Assembly (NCBI GenBank): GCA_037481695.1
Contig: JBBFLE010000026.1
Coordinates: 1-35,062 of the forward strand
Source of the DNA: a bacterium
GTDB lineage: Bacteria > Desulfobacterota > Desulfocorpusculales > Desulfocorpusculum
Length of the DNA: 35,062 nt
Direction of reading: 5' to 3'
In this document: piece by piece, positions 9,651-32,788 of the stretch
Numbering within the stretch: the stretch's first letter is position 1
Layout of the letters: each line of letters begins with the position of its first letter
Translations under genes and position numbers: made by a program
Notes under the pieces: model-generated
What the model saw: the letters and a program-made list of their open reading frames with translations, nothing else
Database searches by the model: none
What the model was told of the DNA's origin: nothing

Positions 9651-9669
9651 TCCTTCGTATGACAGGATC

Positions 9670-9698: not shown

Positions 9699-10217
9699 CG
9701 TAACCTTTGACGCCATATGATTTTGTGGATTAGACAAAGTAGGTCAATGAGACATTAGGCTCTCATGAATCGGGCTGTGCCCGGAAAAAGGACACCTTAA
9801 GCACCCATGGGAGCCTGAAGTAATGGGTCTTCCAAGTCATCTTTCTTGGCGAACAATTGGCCTCCATTTTTCATGAACACTGAAAACTGGGGGGCTAACC
9901 AGGAGATTCTGTGATGAATTGATTTGTGCTGGAATGGAGCCCGATTCTCCCCATCGGGTCCTTCCCAGGTCAAAGCCTGGAAATGGGTAAAGAGAACAAG
10001 GGCTGGAAGAGTACCCCCCAAAGCTCACCGATCCTGGGGGATCAATTAGGTCAGGTACGGGCTGACTTTTTTCCCCGAGTGGTTAAGGAACCTGGGAAAT
10101 GGTATTATCCCAAAAGATTTCCCATGACTATCCACAGGATGCCGAGGTCTGAGAGGCCCACAGTCCTCCGGCAAACTTGGAAAGAACCATAGATCCGGCG
10201 GTGATGGGAGGCTTGCC
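9699..10217. other. Intergenic region between btuF promoter and the trxB-like gene
   Basis: About 520 bases without a gene I can support. Short open frames exist on both strands (for example 9797-10021, minus, 74 codons from TTG) but none has a ribosome-binding site or recognisable sequence. No tRNA cloverleaf or repeat was seen. The promoter of the plus-strand cluster starting at 10218 should lie here. Confidence 0.6.
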
Positions 10218-13396: not shown

Positions 13397-14452
13397 TCAG
13401 CTCAACCTTCCCACCGCCGGGCTGGGCCTTCGGCCATAGTCGCGAACAGTCGCAACAATGGCCCTCATGTTCTCCTCTTTAATGTCTGGCCACAGATCAC
13501 AGCCAGGCCAAACCGCATCAACTCCCCCATCAATGTTTTTCTTGATGCCTGCTATTGCCTGCTCGACAGTGGTTTCCTCCTTGCATGGAAGGGCAAACAC
13601 ATCAAAATTCCCAAAGAGAAGAACATCGTTTCCTAGTTTCTTTCGGGACTCACTTAGGTTGTTCTTGATATCGACACTTATTGCGTCTGCCCCACAATCG
13701 TTCATCATCTCGATGATGAGGTCCGTTGCCCCGCATATATGAAGGATCTTGGGCGATTTCCAAGAAGAGAGTATCCTTTGCATCCTAGGCTGGATAATGG
13801 CCTTCCATGTCCTAGGACTAAGAAGATCTGTCCCGGTGCCCATCTCCCTTAGAGTGATATAATCAGCTCCTGCGGCCTGCAGGGCCTGCCCAATCTTTAT
13901 GCACATGTCCGTCAGTTTATCTAAGACTGCCTCCACCTTTTCCTTCTCCTTGAATACGCCTTTGAGAAGGATGTCCAACTCCAATACTTGTCCGGCCTGT
14001 GTGAAAGGACCTAGCTGCCAGGCACCCACAGGATACTCTGGGGCCTCTTGCTTCACGATCTTTATGGCCTCAGGGATTACTGTGATCGGCCACTTTTGCG
14101 CTATGTCCTCTGGGATTTCTACTTCTTCCATGGTCTTCCAGCGTTTCTCAGGGATAGTTGGGTAGAGTATATCTTCGGAGTCCTCATAGAGGCTAATATT
14201 GTTACCCAATGCTTGTGATTCCCAGCACATGTCGAAAGGGACCACCACCGAGTCAAAACCGAACATCTTGCTGGAAAGGATCGCAGATCGGGCCAGCTTC
14301 ACCGGGTCTCGGTGGATCTGAGGGAAGCGGTAACCCAGTTGTTTGATGGCAGGCATCAGTACCATTCCCATACCACTGAAAAAAGGCATTGTGTCCAGGG
14401 GTTCTTTGCGGAAGAGTCTATCCAATCTTTCTCTGGGGGTCATCTCTGGCAT
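13397..14452 (-). CDS. MtaA/CmuA-family corrinoid methyltransferase, copy 1
   Basis: UroD-fold zinc methyltransferase of the MtaA/MtbA/CmuA group, which moves methyl groups between a methyl-corrinoid protein and a thiol or tetrahydrofolate-like acceptor. Zinc ligands are visible: His238-x-Cys240 in KILHICGATD and Cys318 in VWPGCDLWPD. The protein has 351 residues; the start follows an AAAGGAG site. It aligns without gaps over nearly its whole length to the protein at 31546-32604, about three quarters identical by eye, and both end in RPSPAVGRLS followed by UGA. The neighbours are a DUF2284 protein upstream and a DUF2284 remnant downstream. Which acceptor it uses is unknown. Confidence 0.9.
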   Translation of the reverse strand: MPEMTPRERLDRLFRKEPLDTMPFFSGMGMVLMPAIKQLGYRFPQIHRDPVKLARSAILSSKMFGFDSVVVPFDMCWESQALGNNISLYEDSEDILYPTIPEKRWKTMEEVEIPEDIAQKWPITVIPEAIKIVKQEAPEYPVGAWQLGPFTQAGQVLELDILLKGVFKEKEKVEAVLDKLTDMCIKIGQALQAAGADYITLREMGTGTDLLSPRTWKAIIQPRMQRILSSWKSPKILHICGATDLIIEMMNDCGADAISVDIKNNLSESRKKLGNDVLLFGNFDVFALPCKEETTVEQAIAGIKKNIDGGVDAVWPGCDLWPDIKEENMRAIVATVRDYGRRPSPAVGRLS

Positions 14453-16035: not shown

Positions 16036-16847
16036 CCCGCCACCTTGATCCTTCTGACACTTTTCATACCAAAGCTAAGAGTCTTGACAAGAAGCAAGTC
16101 GCTGGCCCTTCCCACCAGGGCGATCATTATCATCCCCACGATTATCACATCTACCTGACCTAGCATCCGCGCGTCCATGATCACCGCCCCCAGTCCATCT
16201 GGCACGCCGGTAAGTTCCCCCAACACCAGATAAGCCCAAGCAACACCCAAGCCCAGCCTCAACCCTGCGAGTATGTGGGGCATGGTTGCTGGGATAAGGA
16301 TTCTAAAGACCAGGCCAAGCCCTTTCACTCCCATCATCCCAGCGGCCTGGATGAACATGGGATTAACCTGAGCAGCGCCCGCTGCAGTATTGAGGTATAT
16401 TGGGAAAAAGGCTGCCAGGGCTACCAGAAACACGGTTGTCTTGGTACCTATCCCAAACCATATCATGGCAAGAGGAAGCCACGTAATCCCAGGGATAGCC
16501 CTCATTCCATTCACCGTGAGACTCAAGGAACTGTGGACCCACCACAAACGACCGGACATGAGCCCCAGAGGAAGCCCCATCAGCACAGCACAGGTGAACC
16601 CCAACCCCACCCTGGAGACGCTAGCCAAAGTGTCGCTCAGAAAACGACCCGCGAACCGCGCCGAGCCTGCAGGCTGCAATACGTACGCATCCATGGTCTT
16701 CAGGATCTCGGAGGGAGACGGTAGCAGATACGGCGGCACCATCCCGTCATAGGTCACCAGCGTCCAAGCCACCAACAAAAAGCAGGGCATGATGAATGCA
16801 ATGATATAGTTCGAATAGGGTTTGCCGGGGCCATTGAACACAGACAA
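16032..16847 (-). CDS. ABC transporter permease, SsuC/TauC type
   Basis: A 271-residue inner-membrane permease with six or so helices. The family loop is visible at GLVFRILIPATMPHILAGLR, the EAA-like motif, followed by LGLGVAWAYLVLGELTG. The first helix begins near residue 15, and VPPYLLPSPSEILKTM is the usual SsuC segment after it. The start is TTG at 16847, five bases after GAGGTGA; a GTG two codons in is possible. It sits ten bases downstream of the binding-protein gene and is coupled to the ATPase gene. Confidence 0.91.
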   Translation of the reverse strand: MSVFNGPGKPYSNYIIAFIMPCFLLVAWTLVTYDGMVPPYLLPSPSEILKTMDAYVLQPAGSARFAGRFLSDTLASVSRVGLGFTCAVLMGLPLGLMSGRLWWVHSSLSLTVNGMRAIPGITWLPLAMIWFGIGTKTTVFLVALAAFFPIYLNTAAGAAQVNPMFIQAAGMMGVKGLGLVFRILIPATMPHILAGLRLGLGVAWAYLVLGELTGVPDGLGAVIMDARMLGQVDVIIVGMIMIALVGRASDLLLVKTLSFGMKSVRRIKVAG

Positions 16848-16856
16848 TTGTCACCT

Positions 16857-17825
16857 CTACTGTGTAGTGGATTTGATTTGCCGTACAAAGTTTAGGTCGA
16901 AGAGTTCCTCATAATTGGGCTGACGATCTATCAGGCCAAGGGTTTTCATCCTCTCCCCCAAGGCCATGGCCCTCTTGATATAGGATTCGTCCATCTTCCA
17001 TTCCAGCTCCATATTGGAGGAGGCCTGCTCGAGTACTTTGAGTGGGGTCCCAAATTCAGAGGCTTTGAGCAACCACTCTTGGGGATTTTTCTTAAGATAT
17101 TCAGTGGCCCTTGCATGGGCTGTGATCAACCTCAGGACAAGGTTGGGATTTTTCTCTATTGTCTCTCGACGCACAATCATGCCCGCATTGATAGCCCCGA
17201 TACTGTCATCATAGTAGGGATAACTCAGGATTCTGCCGTAACCTTCTACAACGGCAATGCTAGGAAAGGGCTCTCCTGACAGGAAGGCGTCGATGCTGCC
17301 CCTGGCCAGGGCTGTTCCCATGTCAAAGAAATCAACACGGGTCAATGTTACCTCCTTACTGGGGTTGAGACCCGCACGGGTTAAAGTCTCTCTTAGCAGG
17401 ACCTCGTGCATGGTGCCAGGCACGTAGCCTATTTTCTTGCCTCGAAGGTCACTGGTCGTCCTTATATCGGCATGTTTCCCCACTACCAAGGCAGAGCACT
17501 TGTTACACAGGGACGCCACTACCACTAAAGGCTCGCCACGGGATGCAGCCTGTATGGCATAAGGTATGGTTGTGCCGCACATCTCCAGGCTGCCGGCAGT
17601 CAAGGCGATTTTCATATCCGCGGGATTCGTGAAGGGGAAGATCATAACTTTCACCCCTGCGTCCATAAACTTCTCATAGAAAAAGGGCGCAATAGTCTGG
17701 GCGGTCTTCCACGTTCCTATCCTGAGTTCATCCCCTAAGGCCGCTGAGATCGCAGCAACCAGAACCCAAACAAAGATGACGGCAATCCAGAAAAACCGCC
17801 TTATCAATGAGGTAATTGACCCCAT
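16857..17825 (-). CDS. Periplasmic substrate-binding protein, SsuA/TauA/NMT1-like
   Basis: The 322-residue protein has an N-terminal signal (RRFFWIAVIFVWVLVAAISA, residues 9-28) and the two-lobed NMT1/SsuA fold: ELRIGTWKTAQTIAPFFYEK, ADMKIALTAGSLEMCGTTIP, DLRGKKIGYVPGTMHEVLLR and ARGSIDAFLSGEPFPSIAVV. It begins after a strong GAGGAGG site. It has an unusual CNKC (residues near 107-110) inside an otherwise standard lobe. The gene stands between an UroD-family protein and the permease. The pathway context suggests a small methylated or sulfonated compound, but the ligand cannot be read from sequence. Confidence 0.88.
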   Translation of the reverse strand: MGSITSLIRRFFWIAVIFVWVLVAAISAALGDELRIGTWKTAQTIAPFFYEKFMDAGVKVMIFPFTNPADMKIALTAGSLEMCGTTIPYAIQAASRGEPLVVVASLCNKCSALVVGKHADIRTTSDLRGKKIGYVPGTMHEVLLRETLTRAGLNPSKEVTLTRVDFFDMGTALARGSIDAFLSGEPFPSIAVVEGYGRILSYPYYDDSIGAINAGMIVRRETIEKNPNLVLRLITAHARATEYLKKNPQEWLLKASEFGTPLKVLEQASSNMELEWKMDESYIKRAMALGERMKTLGLIDRQPNYEELFDLNFVRQIKSTTQ

Positions 17826-21247: not shown

Positions 21248-22282
21248 TCAGGTAGTTTCCTGCATGGGATCCCAGACGGATTCCTTGGACAAAGCGGGGA
21301 ATCGATCTGTCAGGGCTTCCAGTTGTGGCATCACATCCGGCGGGGCGATGAAGACCAATCGATTGAGAAGATAAAGGCGCTCGGGCGGCAGCTGACGCTC
21401 CTGGATCTCCCACTTGCCCATCACAAGGCTGAAGAGATAAGTCCCTTGCCCCTGTGCCAGGAAACCCTTGGCCCTGACCACGGTCTTGGGCAGGTGGAGG
21501 GCCACTTCCCGGAAGGCTTCCAGGCTTTGGCCTTCCCATTTGTAGATTGCGGACACCAACAGGTCAGGGGGGGTCACTTCCCTGTTGGGGTCAGCCAGGA
21601 GTTCATCTATGGCCAGCTCCAATTCCTGGGCGGAGAGCATAACCCCTTTGGTGCCATCATCTGGGATGGGAGCCTGAGCTCTGGTGGATAGCCCCCCAAA
21701 GAATATCTCCAGGGGGATGTCAGCATAGGTTGTCTCGAAGAACCTGGGACTGGGGTTGTGTCTGGAGATGAGTTCCTTGATGCGATCAACCTGCCCAGGC
21801 GAGGCGAGATCAATCTTATTTATTATGAACGCGGTAGATGAAGCTATCTGTTTTTCCACCGAGGAAAAGGTCTCGTAGGCCTCTTGGAAATTGGCCGCAT
21901 CCACGATACAGAACTGCTCCAACAGGTGAAAACGGTCCTGGAAGAAGGGGAGCTTGAGGTCTCGCTTCAGATCAGTTGGATTGGCCACACCAGTGGACTC
22001 GATGAGAAGCACGTCCGGTTGGATCTTCTGAGCGATCTCGTGCATCCCCTTGATGAAGTCCGTCTTCACGCAAACACAGAATATGGACCCCTTGCTGATC
22101 TCTAGAATGTCCAGGTCCTCACCTTCTATGAGGGTGCCGTCGATGCCCACCTCACCGAATTCGTTCATCAGGATCATCAGCTTGCGGTCTCTGGGAAAGG
22201 ACGCTATGACGCGATTGAGAAAGGTGGTCTTACCGCTTCCCAAAAAGCCTGTAATTAGGAAAACATCTGTATTTTGACCCAT
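21248..22282 (-). CDS. CobW/COG0523-family GTPase, copy 2 (altered metal motif)
   Basis: A 344-residue G3E GTPase. Walker A GFLGSGKTT is at 12-20, followed by MILMNEFGEVGIDGTLIEGE, and NKID occurs in TAFIINKIDLASPG. At the place of the usual GCxCC metal motif it reads GSIFCVCV (residues 65-72), so only two of the cysteines remain, in a shifted CxC. The start ATG at 22282 follows GGCGGAG; the in-frame extension to 22378 is not protein-like. It directly follows the small disulfide protein. The long operon from the right appears to end here. It may serve the same proteins as the CobW at 26621, with another metal or none. Confidence 0.87.
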   Translation of the reverse strand: MGQNTDVFLITGFLGSGKTTFLNRVIASFPRDRKLMILMNEFGEVGIDGTLIEGEDLDILEISKGSIFCVCVKTDFIKGMHEIAQKIQPDVLLIESTGVANPTDLKRDLKLPFFQDRFHLLEQFCIVDAANFQEAYETFSSVEKQIASSTAFIINKIDLASPGQVDRIKELISRHNPSPRFFETTYADIPLEIFFGGLSTRAQAPIPDDGTKGVMLSAQELELAIDELLADPNREVTPPDLLVSAIYKWEGQSLEAFREVALHLPKTVVRAKGFLAQGQGTYLFSLVMGKWEIQERQLPPERLYLLNRLVFIAPPDVMPQLEALTDRFPALSKESVWDPMQETT

Positions 22283-22295
22283 GACAGCACTCCGC

Positions 22296-22553
22296 CTAAC
22301 CTGGCACCATGCCCTTGGCCTTGAGCATTTCGAAGATCTGTTCCGGTGAGAGGACTCTGGCCGTACAAACAACCTCACCGTCTATAACAAGACCCGGAGT
22401 AGCAAAAACGCCCATCTTCAGGAAGTATTGAGGCTCTTTGATCTTTTCCACCTGAACCAAGTCCTTGGAACCCGCCATTTCCAAGGCCTTGATCACATTT
22501 TGATATAAGACCTCACAATTCCTGCAACCTGGGCCAAGGACCTGGATCTTCAT
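22296..22553 (-). CDS. Small redox-active disulfide protein (thioredoxin_3 family)
   Basis: An 85-residue protein starting MKIQVLGPGCRNCEVLYQNV, the signature of the glutaredoxin-like 'redox-active disulfide protein 2' family, with the pair CRNC at 10-13 and a cis-Pro segment FATPGLVIDGEVV. The ATG at 22553 follows GGGAGG; a longer in-frame reading is not supported. Members reduce disulfides, with electrons from a thioredoxin-reductase-type protein; the flavoprotein at 10218 could fill that role. Confidence 0.9.
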   Translation of the reverse strand: MKIQVLGPGCRNCEVLYQNVIKALEMAGSKDLVQVEKIKEPQYFLKMGVFATPGLVIDGEVVCTARVLSPEQIFEMLKAKGMVPG

Positions 22554-22594
22554 CCTTTTCCTCCCATCTATCCCTGATTTTCCTGGGTCAGCAT

Positions 22595-22879
22595 TCAAAG
22601 ATCCCCATCTAGGCCCACAGCCTTTTTCCCCCGCTCCATACGAAGCAAGTGGCGGCAGAACTTGCAAAGAACCAGTTCCCCTTGCTTTGCGAACTCCTCC
22701 CACGCCTGGGTGTATTCATCAGAAGCAGGATCCAATTCAGAGGGTTGCTCCAGTCTGTAAATTCGATCCGTCTTGCCGCAGTAAGGGCAGGTGACTCCGA
22801 AAAAAGCTGTTTCATGTCTTGGAAGGCCCATCTCCATTACCAGTAGTCTGAGACGTTCTATGCGTTCCCAAAGATCCAT
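22595..22879 (-). CDS. Small zinc-ribbon protein
   Basis: A 94-residue protein with two Cys pairs, CPYC (residues 31-34) and CKFC (residues 72-75), that would hold a zinc ribbon around a mostly helical middle. It is not a family I can name. The start overlaps nothing but follows the SMC-like gene by ten bases with GAGG eight bases upstream. It may be a small adaptor of the SMC-like ATPase, an inference from adjacency. Confidence 0.7.
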   Translation of the reverse strand: MDLWERIERLRLLVMEMGLPRHETAFFGVTCPYCGKTDRIYRLEQPSELDPASDEYTQAWEEFAKQGELVLCKFCRHLLRMERGKKAVGLDGDL

Positions 22880-22889
22880 GAGCAGGCCC

Positions 22890-23870
22890 TCAGCAGCACT
22901 TGTAAAGCCGCAGCAATCTCTCGTCCATAACGAAATAGAATTTCATGAAAGATGAGCCGTCTATCCTGGTCCTAACTCCGTGCACCGTGTTGGCCAATTC
23001 GATGGTGCTGCGCAGATGGGTGATCATTATGAGCTGCCTTTTCTGAGCCAGCATTTTTAGGAGCGTTTGCATGGATTTGTGGTTTGTGTAGTCAAGGGAA
23101 GGCTCCACCTCGTCCAGGAGGTAAAGGGGAGCTTCCAGTTGCTCGAAAAGTGCGAGCTTCAAGGCCAGGCTGGTGACAGCCTTTTGCCCGCCGGAGAGCT
23201 GATGAGCCTTCCGGGCCGACTCTTTCCTAAGGGACAGCTCGATCTCCAAAGCTGGCTTGCCGTTCTCTTCATGGATGAGGATCTCAGCCTCTGCCTCTGG
23301 AAGGAGAAAAGAAAGATAATCCTGGAAAAGTGGGCTGACCTGATTTTCAACACATCGGATCGTGTCTTCCAACTTGGGAAAGCCAAGAAGCTCGTGGATC
23401 CAAGAAAACCGTTGGGGCTGCTCCAAGTAGATCATATCGTTGATCTGTTCTTGCCGCACAATGGTCTTCAAGGAGTTTCCCAGGCCCAAACGAACCGATT
23501 CTTTCTCGTATTCAGGCCGCTCGGCATCTTCTTTGTTTATCCAGTAATGCTCCGATCCATCCTTGCTTCTTTCCCTGGCCAGGACAGTAGCAGAAGATGT
23601 TTTTTCAGTTCCCGATTTGAATTTAAGCTCCACCTTGAGCCTTGATGCCGGTGGGTAGCTCCTGCTACCTGAGAAGAATAGATCTTCTTCTTTTTGGCAC
23701 CTCAATTTGCTCAGATCATCCTCTCCCATGGCCCAAACAATGGCATCCAGGATATTGGATTTCCCCACCCCATTGTTCCCAATGATCACCCCAATGCCGG
23801 GTTCGAAACCCATGCTTGTGGGCTCAGAGAAAGACTTGAAACCTTCTACCCTTAATCCTTCCAAGTACAT
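22890..23870 (-). CDS. Coil-less SMC/RecF-like ATPase
   Basis: A 326-residue ATPase with a complete SMC-type head. It begins YLEGLRVEGFKSFSEPTSM, with Walker A GNNGVGKSN at 31-39, as in SMC proteins. The ABC signature LSGGQKAVTSLALKLAL is at 225-241, Walker B LYLLDEVEPSLD at 249-260 and the switch His in MITHLRSTIELA. Between the lobes only about 70 residues (roughly 150-220) replace the several hundred residues of coiled coil and hinge found in SMC. It ends in Cys-Cys. It starts nine bases after the Sec-thioredoxin gene and belongs to the same transcription unit. Its role in a methyl-transfer cluster is unknown; it could be a conformational ATPase or a nucleic-acid-binding partner. Confidence 0.85.
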   Translation of the reverse strand: MYLEGLRVEGFKSFSEPTSMGFEPGIGVIIGNNGVGKSNILDAIVWAMGEDDLSKLRCQKEEDLFFSGSRSYPPASRLKVELKFKSGTEKTSSATVLARERSKDGSEHYWINKEDAERPEYEKESVRLGLGNSLKTIVRQEQINDMIYLEQPQRFSWIHELLGFPKLEDTIRCVENQVSPLFQDYLSFLLPEAEAEILIHEENGKPALEIELSLRKESARKAHQLSGGQKAVTSLALKLALFEQLEAPLYLLDEVEPSLDYTNHKSMQTLLKMLAQKRQLIMITHLRSTIELANTVHGVRTRIDGSSFMKFYFVMDERLLRLYKCC

Positions 23871-23879
23871 CTGGGAGCC

Positions 23880-24179
23880 TCACGAAATATCCCTGTTTTT
23901 CTTTTCATGACGGGCCAGTATTTCCTTGATTAACTCCTCCTGGCCTGGAATGATGGCCTCGAAAACCAACTCTTGGTCCAAGGCCAAACTGGGCAAAGAT
24001 CTAGCTTTCAACTCCCTGGAGCGCTGAAAACCCTCCAGAGTCCGCATGTCCCACTGCCGGACTTCTATGATTTCCTGTATTTCCCTCGGTAAGGACCTTA
24101 CCGACTCCGCCATGTACACACACGCAATTCATTGACGGAAATCGGTAAGAAGCACATCCACTAAGACTTTTCTATCCAT
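23880..24179 (-). CDS. Selenocysteine-containing thioredoxin-fold protein 1 (UxxC)
   Basis: A 99-residue protein if UGA at 24129-24131 is read as selenocysteine (residue 17). The N-terminal part is MDRKVLVDVLLTDFRQ-Sec-IACVYMAES. It aligns nearly gap-free with the Cys protein at 24994-25398 (IDVLTLDSVQ-Cys-AACGYMMES), and the match continues on both sides of the UGA, through a cis-Pro strand (LPSLALDQELVFEAII) to the last helix. Thus Sec replaces the attacking Cys of a CxxC motif. A hairpin at 24086-24104 is a fitting SECIS. Standard calling would start at a GTG after the UGA. Its stop is also UGA, nine bases before the SMC-like gene. Confidence 0.88.
24086..24104 (-). promoter_or_regulatory. 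Candidate bacterial SECIS element of Sec-thioredoxin 1
   Basis: Reading the mRNA, TCGGTAAG-GTC-CTTACCGA forms eight perfect base pairs with a three-base loop beginning with G. The loop starts 33 bases after the UGA, within the range usual for bacterial SECIS hairpins (about 16-37). Confidence 0.7.
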
Positions 24180-24214
24180 GGGCAACCAACTACCTCTTGT
24201 GCAGGCCTGCGGCC

Positions 24215-24502
24215 TCAATCATTGAGGAGCCTATCCAGATACTTCCTCAATTCTTCTATGCTAGGTATGTATTCGAACGCGAGCATTCCGTTGATGAAGA
24301 TGGACGGCACTCTAGCCGGACGACCGAGTTCTTTGGAGAGCTCCATACATCTTGTAGCTCCACTCAACTCCTTGGTAATAACCTTCTCCCAGCGGAGGGC
24401 TTGACCATAATCAGGCGCCACAGACTCGACCACCCGGGTCATGTATGCGCAAGGGATTCAGTGTTCCCCCTCGTGTAATATCTCAAGGTGAACTTGTCTC
24501 AT
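24215..24502 (-). CDS. Selenocysteine-containing thioredoxin-fold protein 2 (UxxC)
   Basis: A 95-residue protein if UGA at 24458-24460 encodes Sec (residue 15): MRQVHLEILHEGEH-Sec-IPCAYMTRV. It aligns with its immediate upstream neighbour at 24499-24885 (YKADY-Cys-LPCYYMDEA) on both sides of the UGA, including the closing cis-Pro segment VPSIFINGMLAFEYIPS. Its ATG overlaps the stop of that gene (ATGA), which supports translation from 24502 and hence through the UGA. A weak hairpin follows at SECIS distance. Conventional calling gives only a fragment from the ATG at 24442. Confidence 0.87.
24427..24441 (-). promoter_or_regulatory. Weak candidate SECIS element of Sec-thioredoxin 2
   Basis: GACC-CGGGT-GGTC plus one U-G pair forms a short stem with a G-rich five-base loop; the loop starts 22 bases after the UGA. 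Position fits a bacterial SECIS, but the stem is only four to five pairs. Confidence 0.4.
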
Positions 24503-24885
24503 TTCCGGTCTCCCTGACCCCATGCTAGGGCAAGCCTCTCAAGGGCCTCTTCGATGGCTTCCTCCAGTTCGTCTCTTGTGGGAATCATGTCAAAGACCAA
24601 TTCCCCTTGGATGAACAGGGAGGGAACCGGCGCCAGCCGCATATGCTTGAGCACCCCTTCATCCCCATAGAGGGACTTGGAGAGCTCTAGGAAACGTTTC
24701 CCCCCCTCCCTGGTCATGAAGTGAACTCTCCTGTAGTCTATTTTTTCCCCATACTGCGGCAATACTTCTCTAACAGCCTCGTCCATGTAATAACAGGGCA
24801 AGCAATAGTCTGCCTTGTACATGACCTCTATGAGGAGTTTTTCTCCCTCTGGAAGAGCCCAAAAGGCTTCTCCTGTTGCAGGCAT
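24499..24885 (-). CDS. Thioredoxin-fold protein with CLPC motif (Cys homologue)
   Basis: A 128-residue protein with the pair CLPC at 28-31 in YKADYCLPCYYMDEAV, a cis-Pro strand VPSLFIQGELVFDMIPT and a closing acidic helix. It is the Cys-containing counterpart of the Sec protein just downstream, with an extra insertion near residues 83-88. The start follows GGGGAGG nine bases upstream. Its stop overlaps the start of the Sec gene. It has no signal peptide, so it should be cytoplasmic. Confidence 0.85.
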   Translation of the reverse strand: MPATGEAFWALPEGEKLLIEVMYKADYCLPCYYMDEAVREVLPQYGEKIDYRRVHFMTREGGKRFLELSKSLYGDEGVLKHMRLAPVPSLFIQGELVFDMIPTRDELEEAIEEALERLALAWGQGDRK

Positions 24886-24993
24886 CCTGGATTCCTCCCC
24901 TTCAGATGAGAGGATTTTCCCAGCATGGAGGCCGGGATGGGGCCATATATCTCATAGACCCCATCCCGACATTCTTCCCAGAGACCCCGGGAT

Positions 24994-25398
24994 TCACACG
25001 ATGCTGGAGTCTGATCTTGTGAACCGGCCGGCACCTGCTCTTTGCAGGTTTTCCTGAATCTTGTCAAATTCGAACCCCTTTTCCCTCAGGGACAAGATCT
25101 TGTCCCTCATGGTGGGTGTTGGGGCCCTCTTGGCCATCTCATCGATGAGCTCCTCGTATTGGGGAATGATGCTCTCGAAGACGAGATCCCGCTCAATGCA
25201 GATGGTGGGAAGCACCCTTCCTTTCAACTCCAGGAATTTCCCGATCCCGTCCTTGTTCTTGATGGACCATTCCCTGTACTCGATCATGTCCTGGACTTCA
25301 GTGGGCATGGCGGCGATGGATTCCATCATGTAACCGCAAGCTGCGCACTGCACGCTGTCCAAGGTGAGCACATCGATATGGATCTTTTCCTCAGACAT
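24994..25398 (-). CDS. Thioredoxin-fold protein with CAAC motif (Cys homologue)
   Basis: A 134-residue protein with CAAC at 18-21 in LDSVQCAACGYMMESI, a cis-Pro strand LPTICIERDLVFESII, and a 40-residue C-terminal extension (MRDKILSLREKGFEFDKIQE and beyond) that the Sec homologue at 23880 lacks. The ATG at 25398 stands six bases after AAGGAGG; a GTG two codons earlier overlaps that site. It starts 24 bases after the read-through stop of the Sec-methyltransferase, tight spacing that fits the longer reading of that gene. Confidence 0.86.
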   Translation of the reverse strand: MSEEKIHIDVLTLDSVQCAACGYMMESIAAMPTEVQDMIEYREWSIKNKDGIGKFLELKGRVLPTICIERDLVFESIIPQYEELIDEMAKRAPTPTMRDKILSLREKGFEFDKIQENLQRAGAGRFTRSDSSIV

Positions 25399-25422
25399 TT
25401 GCACCCTCCTTGTCAGACGTGT

Positions 25423-26457
25423 TCACCAGGACTCTGGGTACTTGGTGTAATACTGGTAATACCAATCTCTCGCCTCATAAGCCTGATCCATATGTTCCAC
25501 CGGAACATCGTAGGGCATGTCTCACCCAGGGGCAAAAGTGAACCCGGTGTTGCCACCGGCAGCCAGGCTCACTATGGCATCCTCCCTAGGTGAAAGAAGT
25601 CCCAAGCTTAGGGCCAGGGTAAGTTTAAGATTCCCGCCGAACCCCACCTTGTACTTCATGGCCATGTCCCTTACGAACAACATGTTAAGCTGTTCGTCAA
25701 TGGCAAAGCCGTGAGTTCCCACCTTGCAGACCTCCTCTAGGACCTTGGTGCAGTCTCCGCAGATGAAGAAAGAGGAAGTCTTTCCAGCCTCATGAATGGC
25801 CTTTATGGCAGGCTGGGAATTAGGGGTCACGTACTCCCTGAAGGTCTCTGGTTTTATCTGGGAAGCCACCGGATCCACCACACAGATGATGTCGCATCCC
25901 ATCTCGGCGTAGAACCTAGCAGAGCAGGCCCCAACCTCTCCGGCAAACTTGATCACCTCGTGGGCAAAATCCTTTTTCTTGTAAACATCCGTAAATATCC
26001 TGACACCTGCCAGGTGGGAAGCCAGGGTCAGGGGACCGCACAGCAATCCCATCATCACGCAATCCAGCTCGTCCAACTGCGGCTTGGCGATCCTGGCTGC
26101 CTCAAAAATGACCGGCCATCTACCTGATTCCTTGGTGGGGAGCTTCAGCCCGGCCTCTGAGGGTGTCTTGTCCGAGCATGGATGAGTCACCACCGAAGGC
26201 ACATTGTCCCCCCACCACTTGAGCTCGCAGCCCACTGCATTGGCTTCCACTGAGAGGTCGAAAAGCAACGGGATCCCGTCGGCATGGTAACGCTTGGCCG
26301 CATTGACTACCCCTTTGGCCAGCAGCTGAGGATCCTTCAAAAACTTGTCAGCGGGCTCGTTGATCAGAAAGGCACTGTGGACCCCCGAATAGGGGACCCA
26401 GGGGGGAATGTCGGTCCTTTTTCCCCTATAAGCATCTATCAACCTCTGTTTGGCCAT
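25423..26457 (-). CDS. Selenocysteine-containing UroD/MtaA-family methyltransferase
   Basis: A 344-residue protein if UGA at 25522-25524 is Sec312. Up to the UGA it is a normal UroD/MtaA-fold protein; the usual family end is PGC(D/G)-x-P followed by a helix. Here it reads TFAPG-Sec-DMPYDVPVEHMDQ and continues for 32 residues to a UGA stop at 25423. So Sec takes the place of the C-terminal zinc-ligand Cys. The other site is FIC233GDC236 in place of HxCG, so His is lost and a second Cys gained. The ATG follows AAGGAGG. A perfect hairpin sits at SECIS distance. The four thioredoxin-fold genes follow directly. Its substrate is unknown; methyl transfer to or from a corrinoid is the family role. 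Confidence 0.88.
25492..25508 (-). promoter_or_regulatory. Candidate bacterial SECIS element of the Sec-methyltransferase
   Basis: In the mRNA ATGTTCC-GGT-GGAACAT forms seven perfect pairs with a GGU triloop. The loop starts 21 bases after the UGA, in the bacterial SECIS range, and GGU resembles the loop bases that SelB contacts in E. coli fdhF. Confidence 0.75.
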
Positions 26458-26606: not shown

Positions 26607-26630
26607 CTGCGCCTTGATTCCTAGGCGCAG
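26607..26630 (-). repeat. Hairpin spanning the CobW copy 3 stop codon
   Basis: CTGCGCC and GGCGCAG (26607-26613 and 26624-26630) pair around the TAG stop. There is no T-run. It could be a processing or attenuation site between the two halves of the operon; about 150 gene-free bases follow before the Sec-methyltransferase, including an isolated AAGGAGG at 26535-26541 with no good start codon. Confidence 0.35.
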
Positions 26631-27559
26631 AGACATTCTTTGAGCCGTTCAATGATTTTGGTCTGCTCCACTCTCCATCCCACGAAGGCCAGTCGGGTCT
26701 GGCCAGATCCTTGCAGGCTTACCCATTCGGTCTTACCTCCCACATGATTGATGAAGCAAAGCCCATTTTCCAAAAGAGCAAAGCCTTTCACCCGGTAGAG
26801 CTCATAGGGAAGCTGGCTCAGAAATTTCCTGAAGCACTCCTCTCGCAGGGGGACATCTCCTTGGAAGGCAAAGCTCACAAAGCCCATGCCGTGAGCATCT
26901 TCATGGCTTTCGTGCTCATGGAGCCCCTGCAGCCTAGATTCCAACAGATGATCCTCAGATACGCTCCAGAGAACTTGAGGATCAACTTTGCAATGGTGTG
27001 TGGGAACCACTGCTGTGCCAGGATTGTTTTCTTGGATTTCACGCAAGAAAACGGGTATTTTCTCAGGCGACAAAAGATCCACCTTGTTTAGGAGCACCAG
27101 ATCAGCCGCGCGTATTTGGTTGAAAAAAAGCGGACCTAGATGCTCCCGATTTTCCCAAAAGTCTGCATCCACAACGGTAATGACTTTCTGCACAAACAGG
27201 GATCCAGATGGTTCTTCGTTTTTCAGCACGTCCAGGATTTCCACAGGATCTGCCACTCCCGTGGCTTCTATGAGTAAACGCCTGGGGTCGAAAGTCTTGA
27301 TTATTTCTCTGAGGCTCCTCAAGAGATCTCCCTGGATAGTGCAGCATATGCATCCGTTGGTAAGCTCCACCACGGGTGTGCCACCATTTTTGAGCAGCTC
27401 TCCGTCAATACCTATCTGTCCGAACTCGTTTACCAAGACAGCTGTGGAAGAAAGGTCCCCTGGCCAGCTTAGAATGTGGCGAAGGAGCGTGGTTTTTCCT
27501 GCTCCCAAAAACCCACCTATGAGGGTCACTGCGCATGGAGCCGAATTCTTCCCAGACAT
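26621..27559 (-). CDS. CobW/COG0523-family GTPase, copy 3
   Basis: A 312-residue G3E GTPase with all classic motifs: Walker A GGFLGAGKTT (15-24), NEFGQIGIDGELL, the metal motif GCICC (69-73), LIEATGVADP, NKVD in LVLLNKVDLL and a histidine-rich loop HEHESHEDAHG (214-224). The C-terminal CobW_C domain ends in CLCA. It most resembles the YjiA/YeiR-type zinc chaperones. The ATG at 27559 lies eleven bases after the DUF2284 stop; the in-frame extension to 27718 is a shadow of that gene. As the gene before the Sec-methyltransferase, it is a candidate to load its metal. Confidence 0.92.
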   Translation of the reverse strand: MSGKNSAPCAVTLIGGFLGAGKTTLLRHILSWPGDLSSTAVLVNEFGQIGIDGELLKNGGTPVVELTNGCICCTIQGDLLRSLREIIKTFDPRRLLIEATGVADPVEILDVLKNEEPSGSLFVQKVITVVDADFWENREHLGPLFFNQIRAADLVLLNKVDLLSPEKIPVFLREIQENNPGTAVVPTHHCKVDPQVLWSVSEDHLLESRLQGLHEHESHEDAHGMGFVSFAFQGDVPLREECFRKFLSQLPYELYRVKGFALLENGLCFINHVGGKTEWVSLQGSGQTRLAFVGWRVEQTKIIERLKECLCA

Positions 27560-27570
27560 CACAGATCTTT

Positions 27571-28164
27571 TCACTCCACCAGAATGATTCCGTAATAATG
27601 GAAAAGGTCGCGCCTTTTTTGGGCCAGCCTGGGTCTGATGCCCAAGTTCTGCAAGGTGCCCAACAGGTCTATGGAGAAAGACTCCACTGAGGGCCTTTTC
27701 TCCTGGGGGAAACGGCAATCACCCGGGTATGCGCATTCTTTACACAGCCCGCAGGTTTCCCCCACCAACCCAAAAGCCTTGTAGTAGCCTTCCAAGAAAA
27801 GGGATCTCTCCAGGCTCACCGTGCCCTTCCAGCATCGCACTTGCTTGGCACGCTTGCGGGCATTGTCCAAATAGAAATCCGGACAATCCTGAGTTCCCAC
27901 AAGCAGAAGGGCTTCCCGGAATTCCCCCAATATGGACCTTGCAGTTTCAACCCCGGGTGTGGCAGGCGGACAACACCAGTTGGTGTTGTACTTCTTACAT
28001 CCATAACGGCATTTCAGATGTACCCACTGGCTTACCAGGATCTTTTCAGCCGGAAACGGAACCAGCAGCTCCAGACCGTAGCGTCTGGCGTTCTGGGTCA
28101 GACATCTCAATAGCTTCCTAGGAATTCCCTTGTGCTCCAAAGGGATGACTTTTCCATTTCTCAT
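27571..28164 (-). CDS. DUF2284 putative metal/Fe-S binding protein, copy 2
   Basis: A 197-residue paralogue of the protein at 14620-15126. Cysteines are at 52 and 56 (HLKCRYGCKKYN), 64-65 (NWCCPPATP) and 138, 141, 144 and 150 (CGLCKECAYPGDCRFP). The C-terminus YYGIILVE matches the other copy's VMVLLE, so the ends are homologous. It lies between the small cysteine-rich protein and CobW copy 3. Function is unknown; repeated pairing with corrinoid methyl-transfer genes suggests electron transfer or metal handling for them. Confidence 0.9.
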   Translation of the reverse strand: MRNGKVIPLEHKGIPRKLLRCLTQNARRYGLELLVPFPAEKILVSQWVHLKCRYGCKKYNTNWCCPPATPGVETARSILGEFREALLLVGTQDCPDFYLDNARKRAKQVRCWKGTVSLERSLFLEGYYKAFGLVGETCGLCKECAYPGDCRFPQEKRPSVESFSIDLLGTLQNLGIRPRLAQKRRDLFHYYGIILVE

Positions 28165-28199: not shown

Positions 28200-28535
28200 T
28201 CAGCCTCTTTGACCGGCCAGATCAAACAGAATTCTCACATCCCGAGCAACCGCCATGTCCATGGCCACCTCTGCTGCTTTTATCACAGCCAAAGGTACGG
28301 GGCAGGAAGCATGGCAACCAGCACTTTCAGCTGCCCGGTAGACCGGGTTGCTGGTGATAGGGGCAAAGAGCCCTTTCATGGCTATGGTAGTGAGCCGTTG
28401 TCCCATACTTTTTATGTGCTTGCACTCAGATCTAATCTCCAACCCAACGGACCACCTACCTTCTCTCCTGGCGCAAACATCACACAAGAAACCGCAGACA
28501 CCAGGCTCCACGGTTACCCTAATAGGATCTCCCAT
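28200..28535 (-). CDS. Small cysteine-rich protein (probably DUF6951-like)
   Basis: A 111-residue protein beginning MGDPIRVTVEPGVCGFLCDV and containing SECKHIKSMG and a C-terminal CHASCPVPLAVIKAAEVAMD. The mix resembles a family of small proteins seen next to corrinoid activation genes of anaerobes, which I believe is DUF6951, but the name is from memory. Cysteines (Cys14, 18, 21, then 42, 77 and 81) may bind a metal or cluster. I chose the ATG at 28535; a longer frame overlaps the end of the RACo gene. It lies 36 bases before the DUF2284 gene. Confidence 0.75.
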   Translation of the reverse strand: MGDPIRVTVEPGVCGFLCDVCARREGRWSVGLEIRSECKHIKSMGQRLTTIAMKGLFAPITSNPVYRAAESAGCHASCPVPLAVIKAAEVAMDMAVARDVRILFDLAGQRG

Positions 28536-28579
28536 CTCACAAAGGCCCTTGAGAGAAGCCTCTCCTCCCTGCGTGTTTC

Positions 28580-30637
28580 TTACTTCTGATGCAGTATCTC
28601 TGGCCTTACTATCCCCTCCAGATGGGGATACTTGTCTTTCATGTGAGGGATCTGCATACACTCCATGAACTGTTGTTGGAAGTCTTTCTCCACGGTGAGT
28701 TCTATGTATTCCACGTTTCTGGCTACCCAGTTGGCCTCAACCCTCTTCTCCCTGTTGAGAAGACACGCCCTGGCTCCGTCCCCTGCGGCGTTGCCTACAG
28801 AGATTATCCTGTCAATCTCGCAATCCGGGAAAAGCCCCATTACCAAGGCCTTGGTTCTGTCCACGTGGGTCCCAAAAGCACCGGCGATCTTCACCGAATC
28901 CACATGTTCCACTCCCATTCGCCTCATCATAAGTTTGCATCCAGCATGAAGAGCCCCTTTGGCCAGCTGGATTTGGCGCACATCCCTTTGAGTAATGACT
29001 ATGTCCTTACCTATACTTGTCTCTTCAGCCCAGGCCAGAACGAACTCGGGCTGATTGTTCTCGGGATTTCTCCTGAAACGAGGGGATTTCTGCTCCTTGT
29101 TGAAGACGCCGCTCTTGGTGATTACCCCGGCCGCATACAACTCCGCCAAAACATCCAAAATGCCCGAGCCGCAGATCCCTTTGGCCTTCATCTCTTTGGG
29201 CTCTGAGTAACTTCTCCAAGCGTCCCGGCCTATGACCTTGTAGTCCACTTCATGAGTGTCTGGGTCTATTTTGATGCGTTCAATGGCCCCAGGGGCCGCA
29301 CGCATGCCAAACAGTATCTGCGCCCCTTCCAAAGCCGGGCCTGTGGCGCAAGAAGAAGAGATCATCTTGTGTTTATTGCCCAGCACCAGTTCTCCATTGG
29401 TGCCTATGTCTATTATCAGAGCCATTTCATCCTTCTTGTACGGCTCTTCTGCCACCAGCACCCCCACGTTGTCTGCTCCTACAAATCCCGCCTCATTGGG
29501 AAGCACATGCACATAAGCCGAGGGGTTCACCTTGAGGCCCAGATCCCTGGCCTTGATATCCAGGCTATGGTGGATAACAGGAGGAAATGGTGCCAGTCCC
29601 ACGAACTGGGGATCCAGCTGGAGAAGAATGTGGTGCATGGCGGTGTTTCCCACTATGGTCACATCCTCCACATCTTCCCTAGAGAGCCTCAGGTAAGTCC
29701 TGCCTTCCTCAGGGACCTCCACCCACTCCTCCTGGGCATCGGCCCCCTTGCCTTTCTTGAGTTTCTTCTTAGGGGGGTGAGTGCCCTGCACGGCCTGATC
29801 AATGACCCAGTTGAGCCCTTCCACAATATCCTCACTCATGCGTTTGAGGCCATCTTCGGTGGTCATGTGGAAGGTTATCCGAGACATCACGTCTTCCCCG
29901 TACTTGCACTGGGGGTTCATGAGGGAAACCGTGTCCAGCACCTCCATGGTGTCCAGATTGCAGAAATAGCCGGCCACGGTTGTGGTGCCGATGTCTATGG
30001 CGATACCATAATGGGCCTCGCACCTGCCAGGCCTGACGCGTATTATCTCCTTGTCCATCCATATGCTCACCGTGACCTTCCACTCACCCTGCCTCAGAGC
30101 CCCCGGGAGCTGCCTCAATGTCAGAAAGTCGATCCCCAGATTGGTCAAGCCGTACAACCTCTCCAGCTCTCTGCAAACTCTCTCGAAATCCGCTGTTGGC
30201 TCCTCGAAAGTAGGAGGCTCCACCTCCACGTAGTAGGTCTTCACGGCCGGATTATGTTGTATTTCAATGGCCCTGGCAGCCTTGCTGACCACTTGTTTGC
30301 CTGCCCGGGACTCCTCTGGCACAAACACCAGAAGGTCCCCTTGCACCTTGGCGCAACAGGCCAGCCTGTAGCCAGCCCCCTTTTCCTCTGCGTTTATGAA
30401 CTTCTCTTCTTCCTCCTGCCAAGGGCTTGCGTTATCCATGCTGGAATGAATGCCAAATTTCTGGAAAAAACCTTCCTCAATGCGGACCTTGCACTTCCCG
30501 CACACCTTCTTTTCCCCGCAAAGGGTCTCTATGTCTACCCCAAGGACTCTCGAGGCCTCTATGAGGGTTGAATCCTTCTTAACAGGGCCTCTTCGTCCTG
30601 AAGGCTGAAATATGACCATGGCCTTGGCTTCGTCCAT
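28580..30637 (-). CDS. Reductive activator of corrinoid proteins (RACo/RamA-like, DUF4445)
   Basis: ATP-dependent reductase that returns inactive cob(II)alamin on corrinoid proteins to cob(I)alamin. The 685-residue protein has an N-terminal 2Fe-2S ferredoxin domain (Cys40, Cys46, Cys49 and Cys94 or 95), a linker, and a C-terminal ASKHA ATPase domain with GIAIDIGTTTVAGYF, VTIVGNTAMHHILL, LIIDIGTNGELVLGN and KIAGAFGTHVD. The ATG at 30637 is six bases after GGGGAGG; a GTG two codons earlier is an alternative. It follows the corrinoid protein and MtaA genes, its probable targets. The gene end has no overlap with the small Cys-rich gene. Confidence 0.94.
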   Translation of the reverse strand: MDEAKAMVIFQPSGRRGPVKKDSTLIEASRVLGVDIETLCGEKKVCGKCKVRIEEGFFQKFGIHSSMDNASPWQEEEEKFINAEEKGAGYRLACCAKVQGDLLVFVPEESRAGKQVVSKAARAIEIQHNPAVKTYYVEVEPPTFEEPTADFERVCRELERLYGLTNLGIDFLTLRQLPGALRQGEWKVTVSIWMDKEIIRVRPGRCEAHYGIAIDIGTTTVAGYFCNLDTMEVLDTVSLMNPQCKYGEDVMSRITFHMTTEDGLKRMSEDIVEGLNWVIDQAVQGTHPPKKKLKKGKGADAQEEWVEVPEEGRTYLRLSREDVEDVTIVGNTAMHHILLQLDPQFVGLAPFPPVIHHSLDIKARDLGLKVNPSAYVHVLPNEAGFVGADNVGVLVAEEPYKKDEMALIIDIGTNGELVLGNKHKMISSSCATGPALEGAQILFGMRAAPGAIERIKIDPDTHEVDYKVIGRDAWRSYSEPKEMKAKGICGSGILDVLAELYAAGVITKSGVFNKEQKSPRFRRNPENNQPEFVLAWAEETSIGKDIVITQRDVRQIQLAKGALHAGCKLMMRRMGVEHVDSVKIAGAFGTHVDRTKALVMGLFPDCEIDRIISVGNAAGDGARACLLNREKRVEANWVARNVEYIELTVEKDFQQQFMECMQIPHMKDKYPHLEGIVRPEILHQK

Positions 30638-30771
30638 CCCCACCTCCCCTTGAACCCAGGATTACATTGGCCGCTTCTTCAAGATCCAGCCCCTGGCAGA
30701 TCTTGCTCTGCAGTCTGAGGGTGGCTTGAGCTCTAATGCATTGGCAAGAGCACCTCTGTTAAAAGCCTTAT

Positions 30772-31443
30772 CTACACCTGACCTGCTGCCCTCATCTCTC
30801 TGAGCCTTCCTATCATCTTTATGGCTTCCTCCACGGCATTTCCTGCAGATTCGGCGTATCCGTCGGCTCCAAAGAGCTTGGCCACATCCTTGGTCACTGG
30901 AGCCCCGCCCAACATGATGGCCACGTTGGGGTTTTTTTCTTTGATCATCTGAATGACCTTGCGCATCCCCAACATGGTGGTGGTCATCATGGCGGACATG
31001 GCCACGATTTCCGCATCTGTTCTGAGCTGCTCTTTGACAAAGTTCTCCAGGGGCACGTCCCTGCCTAAGTCGTGCACTGTGAATCCAGCCACGTCGAACA
31101 TCATCTTGACCAGGTTCTTCCCTATGTCGTGCACGTCCCCCTGAACCGAGCCTATTACCACTTGAGCCTTGGACTCGCCCTCTTTCTTGGGTACATGCGG
31201 CCTGAGAATTCCCAGACCAGCATACAGAGCATCCGCGCACATTAAGACCTCGGGCACAAAGTACTCATTGCGTTCATAAAGCCCACCCACTATTTCCATA
31301 CCGTGGGCCAGTCCGTCCATGATGGCTTCCAAGGGGTCGTAGCCGTTGTCCACCACTGCTTGGGCCGCTTCTTTGACCTGATCCTCGTTGTAATTCACAA
31401 CCCCATCGCTCAATGCCTTGAGCAGCTCTTCCTTGTTTGCCAT
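30772..31443 (-). CDS. B12-binding corrinoid protein (MtaC/MtbC family)
   Basis: Methyl-carrying corrinoid protein of 223 residues. An N-terminal helical cap (residues 1-90) includes DPLEAIMDGLAHGMEIVGGL and YFVPEVLMCADALYAGL. The Rossmann B12 domain follows with the base-off motif DVHDIG (103-108), His105 being the lower cobalt ligand, then MMFDVAGFTVHDLGRDVP, MLGGAPVT and FGADGYAESAGNAVEEA. It would accept a methyl group from a substrate-specific methyltransferase and pass it to MtaA. The start follows AAGGAGG. It ends with TAG where the family normally ends. Confidence 0.95.
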   Translation of the reverse strand: MANKEELLKALSDGVVNYNEDQVKEAAQAVVDNGYDPLEAIMDGLAHGMEIVGGLYERNEYFVPEVLMCADALYAGLGILRPHVPKKEGESKAQVVIGSVQGDVHDIGKNLVKMMFDVAGFTVHDLGRDVPLENFVKEQLRTDAEIVAMSAMMTTTMLGMRKVIQMIKEKNPNVAIMLGGAPVTKDVAKLFGADGYAESAGNAVEEAIKMIGRLREMRAAGQV

Positions 31444-31545: not shown

Positions 31546-32604
31546 TCAGCTCAGACGGCCTACAGCAGGACTCGGCCTTGCTCCGCCATATTCCCTGGTG
31601 GTTTTCACTATGGCCAGCATGTTTTCCTCTTTTATGTCCGGCCAAAGGTCGCATCCCGGCATAACCGCATCCACCCCAGAGTCTATATTGACTTTTATGG
31701 CAGCCACCGCCTCTTGTACGGTGGTCTCAGCCTTGCAAGGCAGGGCGAAGACGTCGAAGTTGCCGAACAACAAGACATGGTTGCCGAGCTTCTTCCGCGT
31801 CTCCACCAGGTTATTTTTTATGTCCACACTGATGGCATCGGCTCCGCACTCGTTCATCATCTCCACCAGGGGATCCGTCTGCCCGCAGATGTGAAGAATT
31901 TTGGGTGATTTCCAGGCAGCCAATATCCTGGTCAATCGAGGCTTTATCATCTCACGAAAGGTCTTAGGACTAAGTAGATCAGCGGCTACTCCGGGCTCCC
32001 TCAGCGTGATATAGTCCGCACCTGCAGCCTGAAGGGCCTGCCCGATCTTGATGATCATTTCTGTGAGCTTGTCCAGGAGTTGCTCCACCTTGTCTCTTTG
32101 CTTGAACACGGCCTTCAGAATCATGTCCAGCTCCAGGATCTGCCCTGCCTGGGTGAAAGGTCCCAACTGCCACGCCCCTACCGGGTATTCAGGGGCTTGC
32201 TCCTTGATGATCTTTATGGCCTGGGGAATCAGGGGCATCCTGCCCAGTTCCATGATGTTCTCTGGGATTTCCACCTCATCCATGCTTTTCCATCTCTTCT
32301 CGGGTATTGTGGGATAAAGAATGTCCTCCGAATCCTCATAAAGGCTTATCTTGTTTCCCATGGCTTCAGACTCCCAGCACATGTCATAGGGCACCACAAT
32401 GGAGTCGAATCCCATGAGCTTGCTGGACCAGATGGCTGACTGAGCCAGGCGGTTGGCATCGGTGTGGACTTGGGCGAAATGGTATCCCAGCTTCTTTATG
32501 GCAGGCATCACCACCATCCCCATTCCACTGAAAAAGGGCATGGTGTCCAGAGGTTCCCTCTTGAAAAGCCTCATGATTCTCTCTTTGGGGGTGAACTGGG
32601 TCAT
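31546..32604 (-). CDS. MtaA/CmuA-family corrinoid methyltransferase, copy 2
   Basis: A 352-residue UroD-fold zinc methyltransferase with His238-x-Cys240 (KILHICGQTD) and Cys318 (VMPGCDLWPD). It aligns with the copy at 13397-14452 from residue 1 with hardly a gap, which also fixes the start at 32604, 10 bases after AAAGGAG, rather than at 32703. It sits directly upstream of the corrinoid-protein gene and is its likely partner. Both copies carry the same C-terminal tail RPSPAVGRLS. No substrate-specific MT1 such as MtaB, MttB or MtmB is in the window, so it may itself act on the methyl donor, as the CmuA-like fusion proteins do. Confidence 0.92.
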   Translation of the reverse strand: MTQFTPKERIMRLFKREPLDTMPFFSGMGMVVMPAIKKLGYHFAQVHTDANRLAQSAIWSSKLMGFDSIVVPYDMCWESEAMGNKISLYEDSEDILYPTIPEKRWKSMDEVEIPENIMELGRMPLIPQAIKIIKEQAPEYPVGAWQLGPFTQAGQILELDMILKAVFKQRDKVEQLLDKLTEMIIKIGQALQAAGADYITLREPGVAADLLSPKTFREMIKPRLTRILAAWKSPKILHICGQTDPLVEMMNECGADAISVDIKNNLVETRKKLGNHVLLFGNFDVFALPCKAETTVQEAVAAIKVNIDSGVDAVMPGCDLWPDIKEENMLAIVKTTREYGGARPSPAVGRLS

Positions 32605-32788
32605 CAAAGGACTCCTTTCTGTTGGGAGTTTCAGGTTTTGAACCCTTGTACCAAGAGCCGATCCCTGGTCTGCAACTGCTGTGCAAAGCCCAAAGCCTTC
32701 CAAAACAGCAAATTGGCTGGCTGCAAAGTTCTGATCCAGCTCAAGAAGATCCTTTTCCCAGCCTTGCTGTTCTCGTCCTTTTCAAAAC

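Follow-up and report, generated by a model that had tools for sequence, protein, structure and literature searches.

A conserved MtaA-type selenoprotein methyltransferase and its putative dedicated thioredoxin-like partner, encoded in a corrinoid methyl-transfer operon of Desulfocorpusculum

Why should a bacterium encode a selenocysteine-containing methyltransferase next to four small thioredoxin-like proteins, two of them read with selenocysteine (Sec) and two with cysteine, and do these genes work together? The question is raised by a stretch of 35,062 nucleotides (nt), contig JBBFLE010000026.1 of assembly GCA_037481695.1, from a Desulfocorpusculum bacterium (Desulfobacterota); this entire stretch is called the window in the following. 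Five genes, here termed Sec-MT (the methyltransferase, MT), CAAC, CLPC, UIPC and UIAC, lie on its minus strand at positions 23880-26457. Comparison with related genomes confirmed that this array is real and conserved. It further showed a conserved MtaA-type Sec enzyme that is accompanied by a dedicated thioredoxin-like partner, CAAC, within a corrinoid methyl-transfer operon.

The first issue is whether the in-frame UGA codons of the array are translated. A profile made from seven Sec-MTs was run against GTDB r220 contigs and yielded 96 relatives, the best 80 of which were analysed; neighbour counts over these 80 loci are lower bounds, many loci ending at a contig edge. At the Sec position of the methyltransferase the codon is TGA in 75 loci, TGC in three and TGT in two. 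Immediately 3' of this codon, 69 of the 75 UGA loci and none of the five Cys loci show a short-looped stem of 6 bp or longer, and the mean folding z after the codon is -1.38 and 0.07, respectively; the hairpin of the window's own Sec-MT, taken singly, stays below significance (z -0.98, p 0.165). Likewise, the best stem found in the small proteins has a mean length of 6.58 bp behind Sec codons (48) and of 4.96 bp behind Cys codons (115), a comparison among related sequences, so that its p-value overstates the difference. The genome itself encodes SelB (370.4 bits, cut-off 242.25) and a tRNA-Sec whose anticodon is UCA. Because UGA and Cys codons alternate at the same position, because stems follow the UGAs, and because SelB and tRNA-Sec are both present, the UGAs of the array are best read as Sec codons and not as chance stops.

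We then ask how tightly the methyltransferase and the small proteins are associated. A CAAC- or UIAC-type match starts at most 500 nt downstream of the methyltransferase in 74 of the 80 loci, and matches anywhere in the loci amount to 73 for CAAC, 30 for CLPC, 22 for UIPC (12 with an in-frame stop) and 26 for UIAC (25 with an in-frame stop). A CAAC-like gene neighbours the methyltransferase in 72 of the 75 loci of UGA type and in two of the five of Cys type (Fisher p 0.002, relatedness ignored). Among 395 genomes of the same phylum, CAAC homologues scoring at least 169 bits occur in seven, and these seven are also the ones that hold methyltransferases with a single in-frame TGA, always adjoining the CAAC gene. 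Such an overlap would have a chance of about 4e-15 if the two genes were independent, a figure obtained with MT and CAAC models built largely from matches within those same genomes. Three more of the 395 genomes carry a methyltransferase without TGA: in G305 and G016 it forms one protein with a CAAC-type domain, and in G329 no CAAC was found.

These natural fusions are the strongest evidence that the methyltransferase and CAAC would work jointly. Single open reading frames in which a Cys-type methyltransferase is followed by a CAAC-type domain were found in six genomes, at L032 (454 amino acids (aa), G305), L147/L150 (449 aa, G016), L151, L152, L153 and L154, the last of which carries a CPPC motif. 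The L032 protein passes the cut-offs of both URO-D (161.2 bits) and Thioredoxin_3 (31.0 bits, cut-off 24.8), and that of L147 passes URO-D, with Thioredoxin_3 under the same cut-off at 17.2 bits. In the order to which G016 belongs (242 genomes), 15 genomes gave matches, five of them full-length fusions. L155 was rejected as a fusion, a TAG lying between its two genes. Unexplained is an in-frame TGA in the fused gene of L152, which lies in the N-terminal part and not where Sec is usually placed. On whether the small proteins and the methyltransferase ever occur together elsewhere, a point on which the initial annotation had staked its proposal, the neighbourhoods thus answer with near-universal co-occurrence and natural fusions. 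Altogether, adjacency, natural fusion and operon context point to Sec-MT and CAAC as one functional unit, presumably of a corrinoid methyl-transfer pathway of anaerobes.

What kind of enzyme is Sec-MT? Fold prediction and alignment indicate that it is a relative of the methanogen methyltransferases MtaA and MtbA. Its predicted structure has M. mazei MtaA as best match in the PDB (4ay8, E 1.6e-17, TM-score 0.81); the models TIGR01463 (141.9 bits, cut-off 235.4) and NF040654 (119.2 bits, cut-off 400) were not passed, nor was any other NCBIfam cut-off. When Sec-MT is aligned with MtaA 4ay7, Sec312 lies opposite the 'APGC' cysteine, presumably the zinc ligand Cys316, and Cys233 opposite the 'HIC' cysteine, presumably Cys239; the histidine of this second motif would be the ligand His237. 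The window's Sec-MT reads Phe-x-Cys...Sec at this site and departs from the MtaA pattern His-x-Cys...Cys. This departure is general: over the 80 loci the column of the ligand histidine holds Phe in 76, Leu in three, Tyr in one and His in none, with Cys233 and Glu255 invariant (80/80 each) and position 312 occupied by Sec in 75 and Cys in five. UroD1 and UroD3, two further methyltransferases of the window, retain His-x-Cys and the C-terminal Cys in the alignment. Hence, Sec-MT shares with MtaA/MtbA, such as M. mazei MtaA (4ay7), the UroD fold, the HxC cysteine and the position of the C-terminal metal ligand, but differs from them in the replacement of the His ligand by Phe, Leu or Tyr, in Sec at the place of the C-terminal Cys, in its dedicated thioredoxin-like partner and in its named hosts, which are bacteria.

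The small proteins were described by the initial annotation as tightly ordered genes of two ancestral types, and much of this description stands. The order Sec-MT, CAAC, CLPC, UIPC, UIAC on the minus strand was borne out, all four small proteins of the window carry the proposed [C/U]xxC-x-Y-M signature, and of 179 homologue rows 178 have a proline in the cis-Pro column and one has a gap there. The 'coupled starts' hold for CLPC/UIPC only, which share a 4-nt ATGA overlap; because the other junctions are gaps of 24 nt (Sec-MT/CAAC), 108 nt (CAAC/CLPC) and 35 nt (UIPC/UIAC), translational coupling is limited to that single pair. For CAAC, a thioredoxin fold is predicted (mean predicted local distance difference test score, pLDDT, 88.7), with the thioredoxin 1v98 as best match (Z 9.0, root-mean-square deviation 2.4, 88 residues) at a Foldseek E of just 0.018. 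UIPC is a member of NF047660, the 'HUIPC motif thioredoxin-like (seleno)protein' family (143.8 bits, cut-off 105), which has matches in eight of the 395 genomes. CLPC (83.7 bits), UIAC (44.0) and CAAC (34.2) stay below this cut-off and are detectable relatives of the family; these three pass no NCBIfam cut-off at all.

The two types were recovered from 184 matches, five of which (<40 bits) were dropped to leave 179 rows, with four contigs doubled among them to judge by their length and place (L023/L100, L024/L098, L030/L088, L031/L101); merging identical sequences left 173 for a quick maximum-likelihood tree, the careful search being incomplete. The quick tree separates the CLPC and UIPC types (61 rows) from the CAAC and UIAC types (112 rows) with 99% support, which agrees with the two proposed ancestral types, and unites 76 CAAC rows in a 100% group with UIAC as the sister type. 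That each type comes in a Cys and a Sec version applies well to the first pair, where the motif residues of CAAC are Cys-Cys in 81 of 81 rows and those of UIAC are Sec-Cys in 28, Sec-Gly in six and unaligned in one of 35 rows, Sec thus coming first in all 34 aligned rows. In the second pair it is only a tendency: of 23 UIPC rows 13 have Sec (Sec-Cys) and ten Cys (Cys-Cys eight, Cys-Tyr two), and of 40 CLPC rows 25 are Cys-Cys and two Sec-Cys, with one or both cysteines gone in 13. Given these motif counts over the 179 rows, CAAC is a fixed dithiol and UIAC a fixed selenol, and several lineages have a degenerating CLPC. Six loci (L070, L072, L075, L081, L082 and L085) hold a second UIAC-type protein with Sec (Sec-Gly; UASG in at least four) and without a resolving cysteine.

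The surroundings of the array point to corrinoid chemistry. The window's operon also encodes a corrinoid protein, a RACo-type activase, DUF6951 and DUF2284 proteins, CobW GTPases, ArsE-type thioredoxins and more UroD methyltransferases (Table 1), and over the 80 loci matches to the corrinoid protein number 52, to RACo 47, to UroD1 or UroD3 34, to MtrH-type methyltransferases 26 and to MtmB/MttB-type enzymes 11. In the same genome (G000), the right end of contig C20 (L149 5750-9355) carries genes for a histidine kinase and a response regulator, followed by an MtrH gene cut off by the contig end; because this is the gene order found upstream of the operon in relatives, that MtrH end may adjoin the right end of the window. 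One locus (L111, from 1948) has a pyrrolysine-type MttB, a trimethylamine methyltransferase with an in-frame TAG, in a cluster with Sec-MT and a UTPC selenoprotein, so that the 21st and the 22nd amino acids both seem to be in use there. As the methyltransferase co-occurs with His-Cys-Cys UroDs, with amine-type methyltransferases and, in L111, with this pyrrolysine-type MttB, a single dedicated methyl compound is argued against.

Table 1. Positions and properties of the array genes and of neighbouring features in the window; locus counts refer to the 80 analysed loci.
Feature	Position	Strand	Remarks
Sec-MT, Sec-containing UroD/MtaA-like methyltransferase	26457-25423	minus	344 aa; UGA 25524-25522 = Sec312; PF01208 (URO-D) E 3.9e-46
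CAAC, thioredoxin-fold protein (predicted)	25398-24994	minus	134 aa
CLPC, thioredoxin-like protein	24885-24499	minus	128 aa
UIPC (HUIPC), thioredoxin-like selenoprotein	24502-24215	minus	95 aa; UGA 24460-24458 = residue 15
UIAC, thioredoxin-like selenoprotein	24179-23880	minus	99 aa; UGA 24131-24129 = residue 17
Hairpin like a selenocysteine insertion sequence (SECIS), 3' of Sec-MT UGA	25480..25524	minus	stem AUGUUCC / loop GGU / GGAACAU
SMC-like ATPase	22890..23870	minus	326 aa; PF02463 E 4.7e-47; matches in 8/80 loci
Zinc-ribbon-like small protein	22593..22879	minus	Pfam matches weak; found in 27/80 loci
MTH895/ArsE-type thioredoxin-like protein	22296..22553	minus	TIGR00412 71 bits, cut-off 62; 33/80 loci
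CobW_B, CobW-family GTPase	21248..22279	minus	PF02492; matches in 59/80 loci
CobW_A, CobW-family GTPase	26621..27562	minus	PF02492 and PF07683
DUF2284 metal-binding protein	27571..28164	minus	PF10050; matches in 35/80 loci
DUF6951 protein	28200..28661	minus	PF22263 102.2 bits; matches in 35/80 loci
RACo-type corrinoid reductive activase	28580..30643	minus	PF14574, PF17651, PF17650
MtxC corrinoid protein	30772..31443	minus	PF02310, PF02607
UroD3 methyltransferase, His-x-Cys...Cys site	31546..32610	minus	alignment
UroD1 methyltransferase, His-x-Cys...Cys site	13397..14452	minus	PF01208; alignment

Two neighbours of the array deserve a remark of their own. The SMC-like ATPase starts 9 nt past UIAC, and its role next to a methyltransferase operon is unexplained. 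CobW_B carries FCVC where CobW_A has CICC, and the CobW relatives adjoining fused MT-CAAC genes show FCSC.

With this in mind, we propose as the most likely reading, to which we give roughly an even chance, that a methyltransferase of the corrinoid pathway has its dedicated thiol partner in CAAC, which would keep or reset the Cys233/Sec312 site. This site would hold or activate a soft atom, such as Zn2+ together with a methyl substrate or acceptor that is a thiol, a selenol or the like. CAAC would dock on Sec-MT, where its CxxC dithiol would keep or reset the Cys233/Sec312 pair in the reduced state; since both CAAC cysteines are kept in all rows, redox or two-thiol chemistry fits. The three other small proteins (CLPC, UIPC and UIAC) may form a supporting thiol/selenol chain with the ArsE-type thioredoxins and, in loci that have one, a thioredoxin reductase, and the CobW GTPases may supply metal. 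RACo would activate the corrinoid protein through which the methyl groups pass; many relatives would then hand them on to a tetrahydrofolate via an MtrH-type methyltransferase.

Several observations weigh against this proposal. The Sec-MT model has a pLDDT below 50 at 277-318, which makes the geometry of the Sec site unreadable from it. At the loci of the UGA-type methyltransferases L090, L095 and L097 no CAAC of any kind was found, and the neighbour of the UGA-type L091 is without CxxC. CLPC rows are often short of a motif cysteine and six of 35 UIAC rows have Sec without a second Cys, which fits poorly with plain disulfide exchange in these members. The fused methyltransferases bear Cys, not Sec, and therefore CAAC need not be limited to selenium. 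Metal supply, finally, is a role of the CobW family that enters the scheme as general background.

The initial annotation had suggested a selenol/thiol relay or carriers of an intermediate, and such a role is plausible. One form of it is the strongest alternative, tentative and clearly less probable than the thiol-partner reading: CAAC, and perhaps the Sec proteins too, would be methyl acceptor or donor, a protein-borne substitute for coenzyme M, with Sec-MT shuttling methyl groups to or from the corrinoid protein. The closest PDB relative of Sec-MT is indeed the coenzyme M methyltransferase MtaA, and the six Sec-only UIAC paralogue rows without resolving Cys resemble carriers. Moreover, in the 11 loci with MtmB- or MttB-type amine methyltransferases none has MtrH nearby, so that the part of second methyltransferase could fall to Sec-MT in them, although this absence is weak evidence, some loci ending at a contig edge. 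On the other hand, MtrH occurs together with a UroD1/UroD3-type enzyme in 25 of 80 loci, one fusion operon contains MtmB plus a separate HxC UroD and may thus already hold a conventional acceptor enzyme, and a one-thiol carrier needs less than the two invariant cysteines of CAAC. The more specific version, in which Sec-MT would move methyl groups between the corrinoid protein and a thiol or selenol of thioredoxin-fold carriers, making them a bacterial protein-borne counterpart of coenzyme M with Sec in both the metal site and the carriers, we consider slightly less probable still.

It is unlikely that the system serves to handle organometals or metalloids, in which case arsenic, mercury or selenium species would bind to the Cys/Sec site and to CxxC/UxxC proteins during corrinoid demethylation. 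The DUF2284 protein (in Pfam a predicted metal-binding protein), the ArsE-type thioredoxins, the CobW proteins and MIP-family channels in six of 80 loci would suit such a role, but the scanned representatives of conserved neighbour families included no gene for arsenic or mercury, and SaoA, SaoP and SaoX scores are under the curated cut-offs. In L070, L072 and L081 (Desulfotomaculum/Desulfofundulus) the MIP channel gene stands right behind CLPC in the array.

The Sao proteins belong to the Sec-assisted organometallic (SAO) system, which, according to a review (PMC13188914), unites an ATP-binding cassette (ABC) transporter in one cluster with several selenoproteins and with a Sec protein that is thioredoxin-like, and the window likewise has these elements together. 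Membership of the window's ABC transporter (15250-17825) in this system was rejected, with scores of 242.8 against 360 bits for SaoA, 144 against 295 for SaoP and 76.4 against 300 for SaoX, and the SaoT model gave no match among the window's small proteins. The same review lists the Tso three-selenoprotein operon in one table with HUIPC as a multi-selenoprotein neighbourhood, in which respect it resembles our array. It was rejected for the genome of the window (G000), where TsoA is absent, TsoA being found in three of ten genomes tested. In L029 (G141 C195), a CMLC-type relative of the small proteins at 9524-9796 is separated by about 3.5 kb from a TsoA match that is weak, with no Sec-MT match in the 19.9 kb of contig read.

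A little less probable again is that the array is a variant of a type 1 mlp gene cluster that salvages methyl-selenium or methyl-sulfur compounds. According to Kountz and Balskus (PMC10418091), these clusters, found in anaerobes that mostly make selenoproteins, are defined by no folate methylase within 20 kb and resemble our operon in combining several MtaA-like proteins with a corrinoid protein and a reductive activase. The window has the corrinoid protein (30772-31443) and the Ram/RACE-type protein (28580-30643) in one operon with multiple MtaA-like proteins, UroD1 and UroD3 retain His-Cys-Cys, and SelB and tRNA-Sec are in the genome. As to a folate methylase, none was seen on the 35-kb contig, but an MtrH gene stands at the end of another contig of the genome. 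MtrH in 26 of 80 related loci runs against that definition, Sec-MT has no His ligand, and its relatives are found with amine-type methyltransferases too; Sec in the methyltransferase, the thioredoxin-like array and the MtrH-type folate methyltransferase of many loci set our system apart from the mlp clusters. The last alternative, that the UGAs are ordinary stops in truncated or decayed genes, draws on the weak hairpin of the window's Sec-MT but has a negligible chance, being already contradicted by a codon that is UGA in 75 and Cys in five of 80 loci, by protein conservation beyond it, and by SelB and tRNA-Sec in the genome.

Is the array, then, a described system? The opinion of the initial annotation that it is not has to be narrowed for UIPC, which belongs to an already named family (NF047660) that figures as the predicted selenoprotein family HUIPC in the 2026 review (PMC13188914). 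For Sec-MT it stands in the literature searched: the accessible text of that review contains none of the terms 'UroD', 'MtaA', 'cobamide' and 'methylcobalamin', and a search that included the available parts of PMC12013277, PMC5029168, PMC2398784 and PMC9312934, with the primary HUIPC paper (Haft and Tolstoy 2025) outside its range, returned no Sec form of this methyltransferase. A further search on methyl-sulfide degradation by sulfate reducers gave no paper that contained all five terms.

In summary, our analysis points to the thiol-partner reading as the most likely role of CAAC, and Sec-MT appears to make up a selenoprotein family not listed so far, in which a methyltransferase of the corrinoid pathway has Sec in place of a metal-ligand cysteine. 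It is spread over sulfate reducers and related Bacillota, and its putative dedicated thioredoxin-like partner was brought to light by natural gene fusion. With this finding it could become testable how these anaerobes transfer methyl groups from compounds for which no bacterial methyl-transfer enzymes are known, and why selenium repays its cost there.

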